Assembly (NCBI GenBank): GCA_903822975.1
Contig: CAIJRD010000015.1
Span: 1 to 64,000, forward strand
Reading direction: 5' to 3'
DNA: 64,000 bases
From: an uncultured Sinobacteraceae bacterium
Lineage (GTDB): Bacteria; Pseudomonadota; Gammaproteobacteria; Nevskiales; Nevskiaceae
This document shows, piece by piece, positions 1 to 6,712 of this stretch; position 1 is the stretch's first letter, and each line of letters begins with the position of its first letter. The notes below the pieces were generated by a model. The model did no database searches. It was not told the origin of the DNA and saw only the letters and a program-made list of their open reading frames with translations. The position numbers and the translations under genes were made by a program.

Positions 1-1
1 C

Positions 2-130
2 AAGGGTGCATTGCCAGAACAGCTGCGCGCAGTCGGCTACGGCAAATCGCAGATGCTGATCAATCCCGAGAAGGATGATGCGGATCGCGAACTGAACCGT
101 CGCGTCGAATTCCGCGTCGTCGATAAATAA
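2..130 (+). CDS. OmpA-family outer membrane protein, C-terminal fragment (5' end outside window)
   Basis: The last 42 codons of an OmpA-like protein; the rest lies upstream of the window. The visible peptide ends with NRRVEFRVVDK, the typical end of the OmpA peptidoglycan-binding domain, which anchors the outer membrane to the cell wall. It differs at only a few positions from the end of the complete OmpA-family protein at 2204-3325 (GALPEQLRAVGYGKSQ is identical in both). The two are therefore tandem paralogues, each followed by a related lipoprotein gene. It ends 33 bases before the ATG chosen for that lipoprotein, so the pair is probably cotranscribed. Domain assignment rests on the fragment and the paralogue. 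Confidence 0.85.
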   Translation, partial: KGALPEQLRAVGYGKSQMLINPEKDDADRELNRRVEFRVVDK

Positions 131-163
131 GCGTCGTTGAGTAACGGACTACTGAGACTGAAC

Positions 164-1606
164 ATGAACAATCCAAGCACGCGGCGTTTGATGTCACGCA
201 CGCTCTCGCTGATTCTGCTCGGCAGTGCGGCGGCGCTTCTGGCCGGCTGCGCCGATGGACCTGGCAACGGCACCACCAGCTCGGGAACCACCAGCGGCGC
301 GAGCGGCGGTGTGACCAGCGGCGCCAGCGGCGGCGTGACCGGTGGTACGACCGGCAATACCACCGGCTCCTGCAGTTCGTCGACCAATTGCCCGGTCGTC
401 ACCGTACTGCTCGATGGCAAAACCGTCGATAACTTGGCCGACATCAGCGGACACGCGCTCGTCACTTGGACCTCGACCAACACCGACACCACGACCGGCA
501 CGACGCCTTGCACGCCGTCCGGCGGACTCGGCACACCAACCGATCCGTGGCAGGGTCCGTTGCCTTACCAGAGCACGCCGCCCGGCCTGACCGAACAGCC
601 CGTCGCGAACGGCGTCTATACCTTCGTGCTGACCTGTATCAACACGACCGGTGACGGCGCGTCGGCAGGCGCGGCAACGCTCACCGTCGGTCCGATTACG
701 GGCAACGAAAAATCGATCACCGTGACCGTGACCGCAGCTCCGACCTCGATCGCACTCGGCGACAGCTCGACGCTGACCTGGTCGGCGCTCAATACGGATG
801 GCAGCAGCGATTCGAGCATCACCTGCACGCATACGTCCTCGCCGGTGGATCCGGTTTGGAATGCCGCCGCCACGACGGCTTCCGGCATGGTCACGGTGAC
901 CCCAGCAACTGCAGTGGTCTACACCTATGTGCTGACTTGCACCAATGCCTCGGGCGGCAATGGCGCAGGCGCGGCAGCGGTGGCCGTCGGCGACAACAAC
1001 AATCCGCCACTGATCCAGTGCCCGGCCGGACAAACGTTCCAGAGCTTCCGCAACACCAGCAGCAGCGATAAGACCTACACCGCCAGCGCCGATACCGGCG
1101 GACTGTGCCTGCTGTGCTCGGTGACGCCGAACCCGCCGACGAATCTGGTCGCGCCGGTAACGGCCAACGATCTCGGCACGCCGGCGGTCATCTCGCTGCC
1201 GATCGGCCTGATCATCGATGGCGGCAACGTCACCGTGACCGACACCCTAGGCCCGATCACGCCAGCACCGGGCGGCAACGTCGTCGGGTTCGTGATCTCG
1301 GAGCCGGGTAATCCGATCCTGAGTCTCGAAGCGCTGCAGAACATTGCGATCTCGACGCTGGCCGCCGACGGCACCGTTGTCGAACGCGCCGGCAATCTGA
1401 CCGCGGTCAATCTCGATCTGCTGAGTCTGTTCACTGATCCCACTAAGCGCGCCGTGGTGATCAATGCCAAGTTGCCGTACAGCTCCGTCAAGCTGTCAGT
1501 CAGCGGGATTGCGCACCTGATCACCAACGTCAACGTCTATGAGGCGGGCGCATGCGTGGCGCCGGGAAGCACCGGCGGAACCTCGGGCGGTTCCAGCGGC
1601 GGCTGA
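164..1606 (+). CDS. Gly/Thr/Ser-rich lipoprotein with Ig-like repeats (copy 1)
   Basis: Predicted lipoprotein of 480 residues with no function I can name. The ATG at 164 gives a signal peptide ending in a lipobox (ALLAGC, Cys29); the ORF track's TTG at 137 and an ATG at 191 are alternatives. After the Cys comes a low-complexity SGTTSGASGG-type linker, then two beta-sandwich-like repeats of about 90-100 residues. These end in YTFVLTC or YTYVLTC and carry paired cysteines, as in bacterial Ig-like surface repeats. A C-terminal domain of about 190 residues contains CLLC, VGFVIS and a conserved NVYEAGAC end, followed by a Gly/Ser-rich tail. It is paralogous to 3352-4863 in architecture and C-terminal motifs. 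It follows an OmpA-family gene and is followed by an intrinsic terminator. A surface or periplasm-facing envelope role is inferred. Confidence 0.8.
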   Translation: MNNPSTRRLMSRTLSLILLGSAAALLAGCADGPGNGTTSSGTTSGASGGVTSGASGGVTGGTTGNTTGSCSSSTNCPVVTVLLDGKTVDNLADISGHALVTWTSTNTDTTTGTTPCTPSGGLGTPTDPWQGPLPYQSTPPGLTEQPVANGVYTFVLTCINTTGDGASAGAATLTVGPITGNEKSITVTVTAAPTSIALGDSSTLTWSALNTDGSSDSSITCTHTSSPVDPVWNAAATTASGMVTVTPATAVVYTYVLTCTNASGGNGAGAAAVAVGDNNNPPLIQCPAGQTFQSFRNTSSSDKTYTASADTGGLCLLCSVTPNPPTNLVAPVTANDLGTPAVISLPIGLIIDGGNVTVTDTLGPITPAPGGNVVGFVISEPGNPILSLEALQNIAISTLAADGTVVERAGNLTAVNLDLLSLFTDPTKRAVVINAKLPYSSVKLSVSGIAHLITNVNVYEAGACVAPGSTGGTSGGSSGG

Positions 1607-2203
1607 TCGCTTCACGAGCTGATTGCAGTATCCAACCGGCCCTCGAAAGAGGGTCGGTTTTTTTGTGCGCTCGATTTCGTCATTGGAGGATGCCGTCACT
1701 GACGACGGCAGTCGACGATTCGACGTTTTTTAGAAAACGGATTCGCGCGTTTTCGACTCCGGCGAAGGCGAAACGCCAACTCAAGTATGCCCTGGCCTGT
1801 TTTGACTACAGCCGCCAAGCTACTTCCAACAAACAAGTCGTTGCGGCCTGGACGGCAGCCAGGACCTGACAGACGGCACGCATTGCACACGCCTGCGGCG
1901 CCGAGCTCTCGTTGCGATCGGCTATGTAATTCGTAGCTGTAGAAACCGCAACGGACATCGCACGCAAATAATCGGCAGGCTCGTTGATGAAGCCACGCCA
2001 TGGCAATCCGCGTGCGCAAATGTCACCCACGGTTAATTCCGAGCCGATTCGCGTTGCTAGAGTTTTTTCACAACGCGGAAGTTGCCGTGCTTTGTTCGCA
2101 GTGCAGTCGTCATTTGACTGCTGCCGCGTCGCCCTTGCGGCGAACTGAACGGAACGTTGGCACTTGCGCAAGAAAACGGCAACAAAAACCTAAGGGGAAT
2201 CGC
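1607..2203. other. Intergenic region between the two OmpA-lipoprotein modules
   Basis: About 600 bases without a convincing gene. It holds the terminator at 1634-1664 and must hold the promoter for the second ompA-like gene. The ORFs listed here on both strands (for example 1806-2171 minus and 1696-2019 minus) overlap each other, lack family features and look like chance frames. The composition is more AT-rich around 1690-2100 than in the flanking genes. Confidence 0.6.
1634..1664 (+). terminator. Rho-independent terminator after lipoprotein copy 1
   Basis: An 11-base stem (AACCGGCCCTC pairing with GAGGGTCGGTT, one G-U) with a GAAA loop is followed by a run of seven T. It lies 28 bases after the lipoprotein stop and closes the first OmpA-lipoprotein unit. 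Confidence 0.9.
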
Positions 2204-3325
2204 ATGCGCAAGGGGTTATTCATTGGCGCGCTCGTCATGAGCGGTGCCGCCTATGCTCAAGACACGGCAGGAACCTTGCCGCCGAGCATGGAATCTGCGG
2301 GGCCCAGCTCCTCCGCCAGCGCCGAGACGCCAGATGGCGGAACCAATTACATCGCCGTACTCGGCAGCTACATCCGTGCCGACAAGGATCGTGGAACCAC
2401 GCACAACGGCTACGGTGCTTCGCTTGTTCTCGGGCATGTTTTGAACGAAAACCTGGCGCTGGAAGTGGCGCCCAGCTTTACGCTGTACGAGCACGGCAAG
2501 AACAAGGGTACCGACTACTATCAGGAAGGCGGTACGGTCGACCTTCGCGTGAATTTTCTGGGGCGCAACGAACCCATCAGCCCATTCCTATTGGGCGGAA
2601 TCGGCGGTGTCTATGACGACATGCTGCCGCGCAGCGAAAAGAAAGCGGCTTTCATCGTTGACGGTGGTGCAGGTTTTGTAACCCAGCCGTTCTACGGTGT
2701 CGCGCTGCGTGCAGAAGCGCGCTATTTGTACGACTTCCACAACGGACTTTCGAACGCCGGCTTCGGCGATATTCGTGGATCAATCGGATTCGAGATCCCG
2801 CTAGGCATCGTCAACAAGATTGTCGTCGCCGCGCCGGAACCGGTGACGATGGTCACCGCAAAAGAAGTCCCACGCCCTTGGATCGATACCGATGGCGACG
2901 GCGTGGACGATGAGCACGACAAGTGCCCAGGCACACCGAAGGGCCTGAAGGTCGATGCCGACGGCTGCGTGATTCCGGGCCAGGTGATCGTGCTGCGAGG
3001 CGTTACCTTCGAATTCAACAAAACGCGAATCCAGCCCAACGCAGCCGCAGTGCTCGACTCGATCTTGCCGGCGTTTACCGGTCAGGCCAATCTTCACGTC
3101 GAAATCGCCGGCCACACGGATTCCGTTGGCAAGCCGCAATACAACCAAAAGCTATCGCAGTCGCGTGCCGACGCCGTTCGCAATTATCTGATCGGCCTGG
3201 GCGCTCTGCCCGAACAGCTCCGCGCGGTCGGCTATGGCAAATCGCAGCTCCTTATTAATCCCGAAAAATCGGAAGCCGATCGCGAGCTGAATCGTCGCGT
3301 CGAATTCCGAGTCGTCGAGAAGTAA
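2204..3325 (+). CDS. OmpA-family outer membrane protein with TSP3-type repeat
   Basis: Outer membrane protein of 373 residues expected to link the outer membrane to peptidoglycan. The ATG at 2204 was chosen over the upstream in-frame start (2000) because it is preceded by AAGGGGA and begins a clear signal peptide (MRKGLFIGAL...AYA). Residues of about 35-205 form an N-terminal beta-barrel-like domain. Around residues 225-245 is an Asp-rich calcium-binding TSP3-like motif (DTDGDGVDDEHDKCPGTP). Residues of about 260-373 are the OmpA C-terminal domain, with EIAGHTDSVG and NRRVEFRV. The stop is 26 bases before the next lipoprotein gene, so the two probably form an operon. The end of its paralogue is at 2-130. 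The exact physiological role (structural or porin) cannot be read from sequence. Confidence 0.9.
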   Translation: MRKGLFIGALVMSGAAYAQDTAGTLPPSMESAGPSSSASAETPDGGTNYIAVLGSYIRADKDRGTTHNGYGASLVLGHVLNENLALEVAPSFTLYEHGKNKGTDYYQEGGTVDLRVNFLGRNEPISPFLLGGIGGVYDDMLPRSEKKAAFIVDGGAGFVTQPFYGVALRAEARYLYDFHNGLSNAGFGDIRGSIGFEIPLGIVNKIVVAAPEPVTMVTAKEVPRPWIDTDGDGVDDEHDKCPGTPKGLKVDADGCVIPGQVIVLRGVTFEFNKTRIQPNAAAVLDSILPAFTGQANLHVEIAGHTDSVGKPQYNQKLSQSRADAVRNYLIGLGALPEQLRAVGYGKSQLLINPEKSEADRELNRRVEFRVVEK

Positions 3326-3351
3326 GCCCAACTCCACGTCAGGAAATTGAT

Positions 3352-4863
3352 ATGACTTACGAACTGAATCTACGTCCGCTGGCCCGTTTGGCCTGCCTCA
3401 GTCTGATCGGCAGCGCATGCGTCTTGTTTGCAGGCTGCTCGAACGATAGCGGCGTCACCGATGGCGCCACCACCGGTGCGTCCACCGGCGGCAGCACGGG
3501 TGGCGCAACCGGCGGCAGCACGGGCGGCGCAACTGGTGGCAGCACAGGTGGTGCCACCGGCGGGAGTACGGGTGGAGCGACAGGCGGCAGTACGGGAGGC
3601 GCAACGGGCGGAAGCACGGGCGGCGCAACCGGCGGCGGCACGGGCGGTACGTGCAAGCCGGGCGACACCGCTGCGACTTGCCCATCGATCAGTGCCTACT
3701 ATCCTGTAGTCAACGTTCTGGTCGACGGTGTGCCCAGCGAAACGATTCCTGCGGGCCAAGCGTTCACGCTGAGCTGGTTGGCAGTCAATGGTCCTGCAGA
3801 TCCGGTTGCCAACGAACCGCTCACCTGTGTGGCATCGGGTGCTTGGAGCGGCGTCAAGGCCGCTTCGGGTTCCGTAGTGTTGCCGGGACAGCCAAACGGC
3901 GTTTACAACTTGGTTCTGACCTGTACCAACTCGTTCGGTCCGGGTGGCGGCTCCGCCACCTTGAACGTTGCGACGACGGCGGATCCCAGCAAGGCTCCGA
4001 CAGTGACGATCCAATTAGACGGCAAGCCCGCAGAAACCGTGGTGCCAGGTGCTCCGGCGACGCTGAGCTGGTCGGTCGATAACTCGGCCGATACGGTTCC
4101 CGGCGAAGTCGCCACCTGCGTGGCCTCGGGTGCATGGAGCGGATCGAAGGCGACCAGCGGCTCCGCGGCGGTATCGCAGACCGTGCCAGCCCTGTATTCG
4201 TACACGCTCCAGTGCAGCAATTCATTTGGCAGCTCGGCGCAGTCGGCGGTACTCAATGTTGCGAATGGCACGCTCGCGATCTGCGACCTCAACGACACGA
4301 AGTGCCTGACCTACTACGCCTACGTCAATTGCGCGGCAATCAAGCCGGGGACCGTGTTCAAGACGCTCGAGTCACCCAACGCTACGGAGTCGTTCGGAGT
4401 GAATCCGCCGGCCTTGTTCTGCAACAAATGCAGTGTTGATAATGCGGGGAACGTGATTCTCCCGACGGCCGTCACACCTGCCACCATCAAGGTTGGTAAT
4501 GCGGCGCTGCGCGGTGGGGAATACTTGATGGTCAAGGACCAGACGACGGTCTACCCGGCCGGCACACCGGTTGGTTTCGTCGTCTCGGCCACGCCGGATT
4601 CACCGATCTTCGCATTGGGATTGCTGCCGAGGCTCACGGTGACGTCTGTAAACAACGGCGTCGACAACAAAGGTGCGAGCAATGGGCTACTGCCGCAGCT
4701 GTTCGTGCTGGATATCTTCAAGCTGCTGAGCAACGACAACCTGTCGACCGCGATCTACACGCCGGACAAGCCGTTCGACGCCGTGAAGGTCACGCTCGGC
4801 GGACTGATCGAGCATGACTACAACCTCGATGTGTATGCAGCCGGCGTGTGCGTGCCCTACTGA
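3352..4863 (+). CDS. Repeat-rich lipoprotein with Ig-like domains (copy 2)
   Basis: Lipoprotein of 503 residues, paralogue of the gene at 164-1606. The ATG at 3352 follows AGGAAA at good spacing. The signal peptide ends in the lipobox LFAGC (Cys29). Residues of about 40-100 are a long STGGATGG tandem repeat encoded by 24-base units. Two Ig-like repeats follow, each with CVASGAWSG and a later Cys (LVLTCTN, YTLQCSN), a pattern common in bacterial surface repeats. The C-terminal domain of about 200 residues carries FCNKC, VGFVVSATPDSPIF and ends LDVYAAGVCVPY, matching the copy 1 domain. Unlike copy 1 there is no Gly/Ser tail. It lies in an operon with the OmpA-family gene upstream and ends before a strong terminator. 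Function unknown; a cell-envelope surface role is inferred. Confidence 0.85.
   Translation: MTYELNLRPLARLACLSLIGSACVLFAGCSNDSGVTDGATTGASTGGSTGGATGGSTGGATGGSTGGATGGSTGGATGGSTGGATGGSTGGATGGGTGGTCKPGDTAATCPSISAYYPVVNVLVDGVPSETIPAGQAFTLSWLAVNGPADPVANEPLTCVASGAWSGVKAASGSVVLPGQPNGVYNLVLTCTNSFGPGGGSATLNVATTADPSKAPTVTIQLDGKPAETVVPGAPATLSWSVDNSADTVPGEVATCVASGAWSGSKATSGSAAVSQTVPALYSYTLQCSNSFGSSAQSAVLNVANGTLAICDLNDTKCLTYYAYVNCAAIKPGTVFKTLESPNATESFGVNPPALFCNKCSVDNAGNVILPTAVTPATIKVGNAALRGGEYLMVKDQTTVYPAGTPVGFVVSATPDSPIFALGLLPRLTVTSVNNGVDNKGASNGLLPQLFVLDIFKLLSNDNLSTAIYTPDKPFDAVKVTLGGLIEHDYNLDVYAAGVCVPY
3493..3636 (+). repeat. Six 24-bp tandem repeats coding STGGATGG
   Basis: Six consecutive 24-base units each encode Ser-Thr-Gly-Gly-Ala-Thr-Gly-Gly inside the lipoprotein at 3352-4863. 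The units differ mainly at third codon positions, so the protein repeat is better conserved than the DNA. A partial unit follows. It forms the flexible linker between the lipid anchor and the folded domains. Confidence 0.95.
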
Positions 4864-5202
4864 TCTTGGCACGTCCAATTTGCCGGAGGGTCGTATGACT
4901 TAACGGCGCATAACTGGCCCGACTTGCCGCAAGGTAAGTCGGGCCTTTGTTATTTATGGATCGTCGACACGCCGAACCCAATCGTCGAGGCTCGCTCGGT
5001 ATGGCCGAAGCTTCAAAACGTTTCGACCTGTACCAAGTGATTGCGTCGAGGCCAAAGCGATGCGGAACTTTGAGACACTGCAGCGATAGGGACATCGGCC
5101 GCACCCGGGCGCGCACGTCAACCCGGCGCAGGATTCAATTGACTGATGCAGTAGAGGCTGCGAGCGAGTTCTTCAGTCGTTCGTTGAACGTTTGTCGAAC
5201 TG
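4864..5202. other. Convergent intergenic region, no gene seen
   Basis: This 339-base gap lies between the lipoprotein gene (plus) and trpE (minus). Apart from the terminator at 4916-4950 I see no gene. The ORF at 4947-5354 has no recognisable features and runs into the 3' end of trpE on the other strand. Confidence 0.6.
4916..4950 (+). terminator. Rho-independent terminator after lipoprotein copy 2
   Basis: A perfect 10-base stem GGCCCGACTT/AAGTCGGGCC encloses a 10-base loop and is followed by TTTGTTATTT. It lies about 50 bases after the lipoprotein stop and ends the second OmpA-lipoprotein unit. Confidence 0.88.
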
Positions 5203-6651
5203 TCAGGTGCTACGTGGCGCCGATGAGGCTTCGGCAATTGCAGCCGCATGCAGCATCGCCCTGGCCTTGTGCAAGGTCTCTTCCCATTCGGATTGCGGAT
5301 TCGAATCGGCAACGATGCCGGCCGAAGCCTGAACGTGGACCTGGCCGTCCTTGATCAGTGCCGTGCGGATCGCGATCGCCAGATCCATGTTGCCATCGAA
5401 GCCGATATACCCCACCGCACCGCCATAAAGTCCACGACGCACCGGCTCCAGCTCAGCAATCAATTCCATCGTGCGGACCTTGGGCGCGCCGGTGAGTGTG
5501 CCGGCCGGAAACGTTGCAGCCAGCACGTCGATCGGGTGCAGGCCTGCCTTGAGCCGACCTTTCACTTCGCTGACGATGTGCATCACGTGGCTGTAGCGTT
5601 CGACCACCATTTTCTCGGTGACGCGCACACCGGTTTCGCAGACGCGGCCGATGTCGTTGCGTCCGAGGTCGATCAGCATCACGTGCTCGGCAATTTCCTT
5701 GGGATCGGCGAGCAGTTCCGACTCGAGTGCGCGATCCAGCTCTGGCGTTGCCCCGCGCGGGCGCGTGCCGGCGATGGGCCGCACCGTCACTTCGCGATCG
5801 GTCGCGCGCACCAGAATTTCCGGACTGCTGCCGACCACGTGATGATCGCCGAGGTTGAGGCAGTACATGTACGGCGAAGGATTCAGCCGCCGGATCGCGC
5901 GATACAGTGCCGTCGGCGGCGCATCGAAGGGCGCGCTGAGTCGCTGGCCGAGTTGGATCTGGAAGGTGTCGCCGGCCGCAATGTAGTCCTTGGCCTTGGC
6001 CACCGCCGCAAGATAATCGTCTTGCTTGAAGGTGCTGACGAAGTCGAGCGCCCGTGGCTTGTCCACCAGCGGAGCGTGCGGCATGGCATGCGCGGCACTC
6101 AGCTCGGCTTCGATCGCGTCGAGCCGTGCGCTGGCACGCGCGTGATCAGCGGCGTCGTCGATGCGTGCATGAACCACCAGCGTCAGCGTTGCGCGGAGGT
6201 TGTCGAAGACCACCACTTCGTCCGCCAACATCAGTAGCACGTCGGGCACGTGCAAGGTGTCCGGCTGATCGAGCTTCAGCGTCGGCTCGAAGAAGCGCAC
6301 GCAGTCGTAGCCGAAGTAGCCGACGTAGCCACCGGTGAAACGAGGCAATCCCGGCGCGGGTGCAACACGCATGCCGTCGATGTAACGACGCAACCAGGTC
6401 AACGGATCGGACGAGTGGCTGCGTTCAACGGTGACGCCATTTCGAACCAGCTCGATGTCGTTGCCGCGAACGCTCAGCCATTCGCGCGCCGGCAGGCCGA
6501 TGAATGAGTAGCGGCCCCATTGGTCACCGCCGACAACGGATTCGAACAGAAACGTGTGCGGGGCGTCAGCAAGTTTGAAGTAGGCGCCAACCGGTGTGTC
6601 GAGGTCGGCAGGCAGTTCGCGCGTCAGCGCGACGTGGGTGTAGGCGGTCAT
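5203..6651 (-). CDS. trpE: Anthranilate synthase component I
   Basis: Large subunit of anthranilate synthase, 482 residues. It converts chorismate to anthranilate in the first committed step of tryptophan synthesis, using ammonia delivered by a TrpG partner not present in this window. The N-terminal regulatory part contains FLFESVVGG, corresponding to the LLES tryptophan-feedback site. The chorismate-binding domain has GTRPRGATPELD, HVMLIDLGRNDIGRV, TFPAGTLTGAPKVR and the C-terminal ASAGIVADSNPQSE. The ATG at 6651 gives a family-like N-terminus; the track start at 6693 adds 14 residues and has no better ribosome-binding site. rpe lies 198 bases upstream on the same strand. The rpe-trpE order is common in proteobacteria, often with gph between, which is absent here. 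Confidence 0.95.
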   Translation of the reverse strand: MTAYTHVALTRELPADLDTPVGAYFKLADAPHTFLFESVVGGDQWGRYSFIGLPAREWLSVRGNDIELVRNGVTVERSHSSDPLTWLRRYIDGMRVAPAPGLPRFTGGYVGYFGYDCVRFFEPTLKLDQPDTLHVPDVLLMLADEVVVFDNLRATLTLVVHARIDDAADHARASARLDAIEAELSAAHAMPHAPLVDKPRALDFVSTFKQDDYLAAVAKAKDYIAAGDTFQIQLGQRLSAPFDAPPTALYRAIRRLNPSPYMYCLNLGDHHVVGSSPEILVRATDREVTVRPIAGTRPRGATPELDRALESELLADPKEIAEHVMLIDLGRNDIGRVCETGVRVTEKMVVERYSHVMHIVSEVKGRLKAGLHPIDVLAATFPAGTLTGAPKVRTMELIAELEPVRRGLYGGAVGYIGFDGNMDLAIAIRTALIKDGQVHVQASAGIVADSNPQSEWEETLHKARAMLHAAAIAEASSAPRST

Positions 6652-6712
6652 GAGAGGGTTATTTTCAGATTTGGACAGCGATGAAGGTCGCATCGGCGGC
6701 GCAAGGACTGCA

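Follow-up and report, generated by a model that had tools for sequence, protein, structure and literature searches.

We analyzed a window consisting of the first 64,000 nucleotides of contig CAIJRD010000015.1 (C15) from an uncultured Sinobacteraceae bacterium (assembly GCA_903822975.1; genome of 4.46 Mb in 20 contigs). The left end of the window carries two consecutive gene pairs, each comprising an OmpA-family gene followed on the same strand by a lipoprotein gene. We propose, with a probability of roughly 0.5, that these pairs represent a dedicated outer-membrane module of two genes in the Nevskia family, with several copies in this genome, in which OmpA provides the anchor and the lipoprotein a binding arm. 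The combination of an OmpA-type anchor with a partner protein is a known principle, of which the module is an undescribed variant, general rather than local to this locus; no description of an OmpA-lipoprotein module was found in the literature searched. The two lipoproteins, LP1 and LP2, have in common a C-terminal domain of approximately 150–170 amino acids (CTD). The components of the two modules are as follows.

2–130, plus strand: OmpA1 (module 1), C-terminal 42 amino acids, truncated by the contig end
164–1606, plus strand: LP1, lipoprotein of 480 amino acids with lipobox LLAGC (Cys29), Gly/Thr/Ser linker, spacer region and C-terminal CTD
1013–1558, plus strand: CTD of LP1, from profile matches
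2204–3325, plus strand: OmpA2 (module 2), 373 amino acids, with signal peptide, eight-stranded barrel, TSP3-like linker and OmpA peptidoglycan-binding domain
2348–2800, plus strand: predicted eight-stranded beta-barrel of OmpA2, residues 49–199 (AlphaFold2 model)
3002–3316, plus strand: C-terminal peptidoglycan-binding domain of OmpA2, with Asp306 and Arg321 (PF00691, E 1e-20)
3352–4863, plus strand: LP2, lipoprotein of 503 amino acids with lipobox FAGC (Cys29), GGSTGGAT repeat linker, two Ig-like-looking repeats and C-terminal CTD
3463–3648, plus strand: Gly/Thr/Ser repeat linker of LP2
4324–4860, plus strand: CTD of LP2, predicted galactose-binding/discoidin-like jelly-roll (AlphaFold2 and Foldseek)

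Linkage of CTD genes and OmpA genes across the family

The CTD was present in 50 of 58 genomes of the family and 67 of 85 genomes of the order; outside the order, only two genomes matched in a 369-genome sample of the class. Among the 79 family CTD genes with enough context, 31 lie directly behind an OmpA gene on the same strand, 8 lie further along the same cluster, and 13 are divergent from an OmpA gene within 300 nt, giving 52 linked genes, counts that are not independent because the family genomes are related. The present genome harbors 21 OmpA domains, and we estimate chance adjacency at approximately 1%. The OmpAs of the divergent pairs form a second clade. Within the tandem clade itself, one genus has its OmpA and CTD genes in divergent orientation; the OmpA-CTD link has therefore survived rearrangement. 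No OmpA-CTD fusion was seen among the loci examined, and a plasmid homologue was looked for and not found.

The tree of OmpA sequences placed all 31 tandem OmpAs in one clade, the only other members of which were the first OmpAs of OmpA-OmpA-CTD arrays. Fourteen other OmpAs of this genome that were examined fell outside the clade, and none of them is followed by a CTD gene. A family profile search, delimited by the drop in score, yielded 75 clade members, 4 of them at contig ends. On hand-counting the 71 resolvable members, 60 neighbored a CTD gene (immediately, with another OmpA in between or, for one genus, in divergent orientation), 10 lay beside an unrelated lipoprotein, and 1 beside neither. 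Nine of the ten unrelated lipoproteins belong to a repeat family, designated ALT, with no match to the CTD, Pfam or NCBIfam. The ALT lipoproteins contain two leucine-rich repeated units and stand in for the CTD lipoprotein behind this OmpA subclade (L230, L233-L235, L237, L238, L241-L243).

The initial annotation had regarded the pairing as a functional module. With 52 of 79 CTD genes linked, the lipoproteins do not occur mostly apart from OmpA, and with 70 of the 71 subclade OmpAs adjoining a lipoprotein gene, the pairing is conserved across the family and not specific to this strain.

Co-inheritance of the pairs

Distances in the OmpA and CTD trees were correlated, with r = 0.70 across the 32 tandem pairs and 0.835 when only the genus was considered. 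None of 2000 permutations was as congruent, although such permutation values overstate independence because the members compared are related. When partners were swapped inside multi-module genomes, the fit fell in 9 of 10 cases, and random swaps reached the true value in 25 of 2000. The correlation and the swaps therefore indicate that the pairs descend as units, a pattern that is consistent with a functional partnership and is not proof of contact.

Properties of the OmpA and lipoprotein components

Both OmpA genes, both lipoprotein genes and the gaps of 26–33 bases between them had been placed correctly in the initial annotation; the distance from the OmpA stop codon to the lipoprotein gene is 33 nt in module 1 (LP1 ATG at 164) and 26 nt in module 2. 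Its description of near-identical OmpA C-termini, followed by lipoproteins of common architecture that have diverged far more, was also borne out. The two OmpA C-termini have 37 of 42 residues and 105 of 130 nucleotides in common, a comparison limited to 42 residues because the left edge of the stretch is the left edge of the contig. LP1 and LP2 both contain a lipobox, a Gly/Thr/Ser linker, a spacer region and the C-terminal domain, and match at 28% across their full length (E 6e-17) and at 26% across the CTD.

The view of OmpA2 as a peptidoglycan-anchored barrel was backed at both ends of the protein. AlphaFold2 predicted eight strands in residues 49–199, and Foldseek matched the barrel model to E. 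coli OmpA, the OprF barrel (4rlc) and NspA (1p4t). The C-terminal domain scored 74.3 bits against PF00691 (cut-off 27.2) and retains the conserved pair Asp306 and Arg321, 15 residues apart. This corresponds to the diaminopimelate-binding Asp/Arg pair of the same spacing in Acinetobacter OmpA. In the first OmpA of the OmpA-OmpA-CTD arrays at L150, L155 and L156, the HTD peptidoglycan-binding motif is replaced by HSA, HVS or HAS, and these proteins may no longer bind peptidoglycan. Elsewhere in the present genome, two other OmpA genes are followed by genes for small secreted proteins of approximately 130 amino acids (L221:3598-3984, L227:4330-4743), and a BcsC-like cellulose export protein of 1540 amino acids (L216:1839-6461; G000:C9, about 69838-74460) carries an OmpA peptidoglycan-binding domain between its TPR repeats and its BCSC_C barrel.

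The lipobox cysteine of LP1 (LLAG-C29) and LP2 (FAG-C29) follows a pattern found in 67 of the 79 family CTD genes. Neither LP1 nor LP2 matched Pfam or NCBIfam, including the RcsF domain. The CTD likewise had no Pfam or NCBIfam match (19 CTD sequences were among those tested) and no significant sequence match in the PDB; matches to influenza haemagglutinin (E 0.4–1) were judged to be chance. For the AlphaFold2 model of the LP2 CTD (mean pLDDT 73, pTM 0.74), the best Foldseek match was CBM32 2v72 (E 1.1e-5, probability 1.00), with CBM29, XRCC1 and APC10 also matched, which suggested a galactose-binding/discoidin-like jelly-roll fold. Conserved positions include a CxxC motif (two Cys), a third Cys near the end, and GF, LDLLG and PFD-type motifs. 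In other lineages, spacers of the Big_2 Ig-like or TSP3 type precede the CTD, and a single distant homologue combines it with cadherin repeats. By analogy, these lipoproteins may follow the usual surface-protein pattern of a constant tip on a changing stalk, and the adhesin-type spacers together with the predicted discoidin-like tip fold are suggestive of a surface or adhesin role. A secreted protein of 1111 amino acids encoded elsewhere in this genome (L055:2706-6041; G000:C18) contains several Ig-like-looking repeats resembling the LP2 spacer and had no Pfam match.

Proposed organization of the module

In the proposed module, the OmpA of the special subclade would span the outer membrane with its eight-stranded barrel and hold its peptidoglycan-binding domain in the periplasm. 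The lipoprotein would be inserted in the outer membrane by its N-terminal lipid and would carry, beyond a flexible Gly/Thr/Ser stalk and spacer domains, a compact beta-sandwich tip, the CTD. OmpA would most likely be the fixed anchor on which the lipoprotein docks, and the lipoprotein would present its tip as a binding arm, probably at the cell surface, for adhesion or retention of matrix polymers. More tentatively, the dedicated OmpA subclade might be a standard peptidoglycan-gripping platform that accepts, as exchangeable binding arms, unrelated lipoproteins from the genes immediately following it.

Several points weigh against the anchor-and-arm proposal, in addition to the relatedness of the members in the tree comparison. 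Twenty-seven of the 79 CTD genes in the family lack a neighboring OmpA; these encode mainly two-CTD proteins of approximately 1000 amino acids and proteins of 200–300 amino acids, some of which are secreted and not lipidated. The model of the CTD fold is of moderate confidence. Discoidin, CBM32 and galactose-binding-like domains resemble the CTD in predicted fold only, without a sequence match; carbohydrate binding by the CTD is without sequence support because Trp is almost absent and the conserved residues look structural. The initial annotation had suggested an envelope complex or adhesin display unit, of which the conserved pairing and the peptidoglycan-anchored barrel are supported, while the physical complex, the surface exposure and the ligand binding or adhesion are inferred.

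Comparison with known systems

In Acinetobacter, TpgA and AtaA are presumably linked in an operon. Anchoring of the trimeric autotransporter adhesin AtaA is strengthened by TpgA, its periplasmic OmpA-like peptidoglycan-binding partner (PMC13082670). The present module is similar in that an OmpA-like peptidoglycan-binding protein is paired with a partner. It differs in that the OmpA forms an eight-stranded barrel of its own and that the partners LP1 and LP2 are lipoproteins without a Pfam match instead of trimeric autotransporters.

The RcsF gene is not known to belong to the OmpA operon. In E. coli, RcsF is an outer-membrane lipoprotein that forms complexes with OmpA (PMC7553776). RcsF has another fold and acts in stress signalling, whereas the lipoproteins studied here do not match RcsF and in many cases possess long stalks and spacers. 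Slam is a barrel with TPR repeats that acts as a translocon. Surface lipoproteins of Neisseria are connected with this specific outer-membrane barrel protein (PMC5449769); the partner barrel here is instead OmpA. Slam (PF04575) had no match in this genome, and the control genomes gave no match either.

Alternative explanations

The main alternative, because RcsF binds the periplasmic domain of OmpA, is a lipoprotein that faces the periplasm, binds the periplasmic domain of its OmpA and serves as a sensor, a buffer or a spacer for the cell wall, in the manner of E. coli RcsF with OmpA. Over the full pair set, the CTD tree was indeed tracked better by the C-terminal domain of OmpA than by the barrel (0.545 vs 0.357; partial 0.447 vs −0.081). 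Within Nevskia alone, however, the two parts of OmpA tracked the CTD equally. The long low-complexity stalks and the Ig-like, TSP3 and cadherin spacers suit surface proteins better, and there was no match to the RcsF family; we consider the periplasmic arrangement rather unlikely.

OmpA could also function chiefly in assembly or escort, taking the lipoprotein to the surface without being its lasting structural partner. The occurrence of non-homologous lipoproteins (CTD or ALT) behind one OmpA subclade would be expected of a generic carrier, but an eight-stranded barrel is narrow, and E. coli OmpA is an unlikely vehicle for RcsF (PMC7553776). We consider an escort function improbable.

Slightly less probable still is linkage by history only, in which an OmpA-lipoprotein operon was duplicated and inherited and its products do not cooperate. 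Vertical inheritance of a linked block by itself also yields congruent trees, and the 27 unlinked CTD genes do well without OmpA. History alone is at odds with the divergent linkage of a different OmpA clade to CTD genes, with the persistence of the link through the change of orientation in one genus, and with the presence of another lipoprotein in the place of a missing CTD gene. Finally, the breaks at four contig ends fall within near-identical OmpA stretches, but an assembly artefact as the source of the tandem arrangement is very improbable, as positions 131–4863 are uninterrupted, many other assemblies show this gene order, and two other Nevskia genomes have a related LP gene beside trpE.

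Genomic context and further module copies

The remaining features around the modules are listed below.

1634–1659, plus strand: intrinsic terminator behind module 1 (−20.7 kcal/mol, z −4.6)
4916–4945, plus strand: intrinsic terminator behind module 2 (−30.1 kcal/mol, z −6.4)
5203–6693, minus strand: trpE, flanking gene, with the modules on its trpG side

Each module looks like its own transcription unit because a strong intrinsic terminator ends each, and the two genes of a module would presumably be co-transcribed. A search for a sigma-70-like promoter found none, which says little in such a genome.

Further module copies, for which the initial annotation had suggested a check, exist at the end of contig C2 and on contig C12. 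The third module, at the end of C2, consists of an OmpA C-terminus followed by two more lipoproteins of the LP1/LP2 family; this C-terminus is identical to positions 1–130 at 128 of 130 nucleotides. A fourth OmpA-lipoprotein pair, of an older type, lies at C12:462596-464743. The pair in the window is no simple duplication confined to this locus but belongs to a set of several old paralogous modules. The OmpA 5' parts at the ends of contigs C5 and C7 have 168 of 169 nucleotides in common. Hence, the breaks in the assembly lie in a pair of near-identical OmpA copies, whose similarity suggests recent exchange between them. The near-identical stretches that break the assembly (positions 1–130, L052, L053, L054) are suggestive of gene conversion.

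Contig C5 terminates with trpC, trpD and trpG, and trpE adjoins LP2 in the present window. The modules probably split the trp operon, with C5 presumably joined to C15, because the short distance between trpE and trpD in three other Nevskia genomes (L199, L201, L202) would allow an uninterrupted trpE-G-D, whereas the genome studied here, like two relatives (G021, G027), has an LP gene at trpE. CTD genes carrying TSP3 repeats also follow trpD-trpC immediately in a distant family of the order (L184, L192); this is the operon adjoined by the modules here.

Significance

The CTD and the ALT lipoprotein family, both outside Pfam and NCBIfam, are open to naming. OmpA is among the best-studied outer-membrane proteins, and if the proposed module is true, a reserved branch of OmpA would have a specific job as a docking platform. 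The module would then offer a natural, genetically paired system for studying how lipoproteins arrive or remain at the cell surface and by what means long surface proteins are attached to the cell wall.
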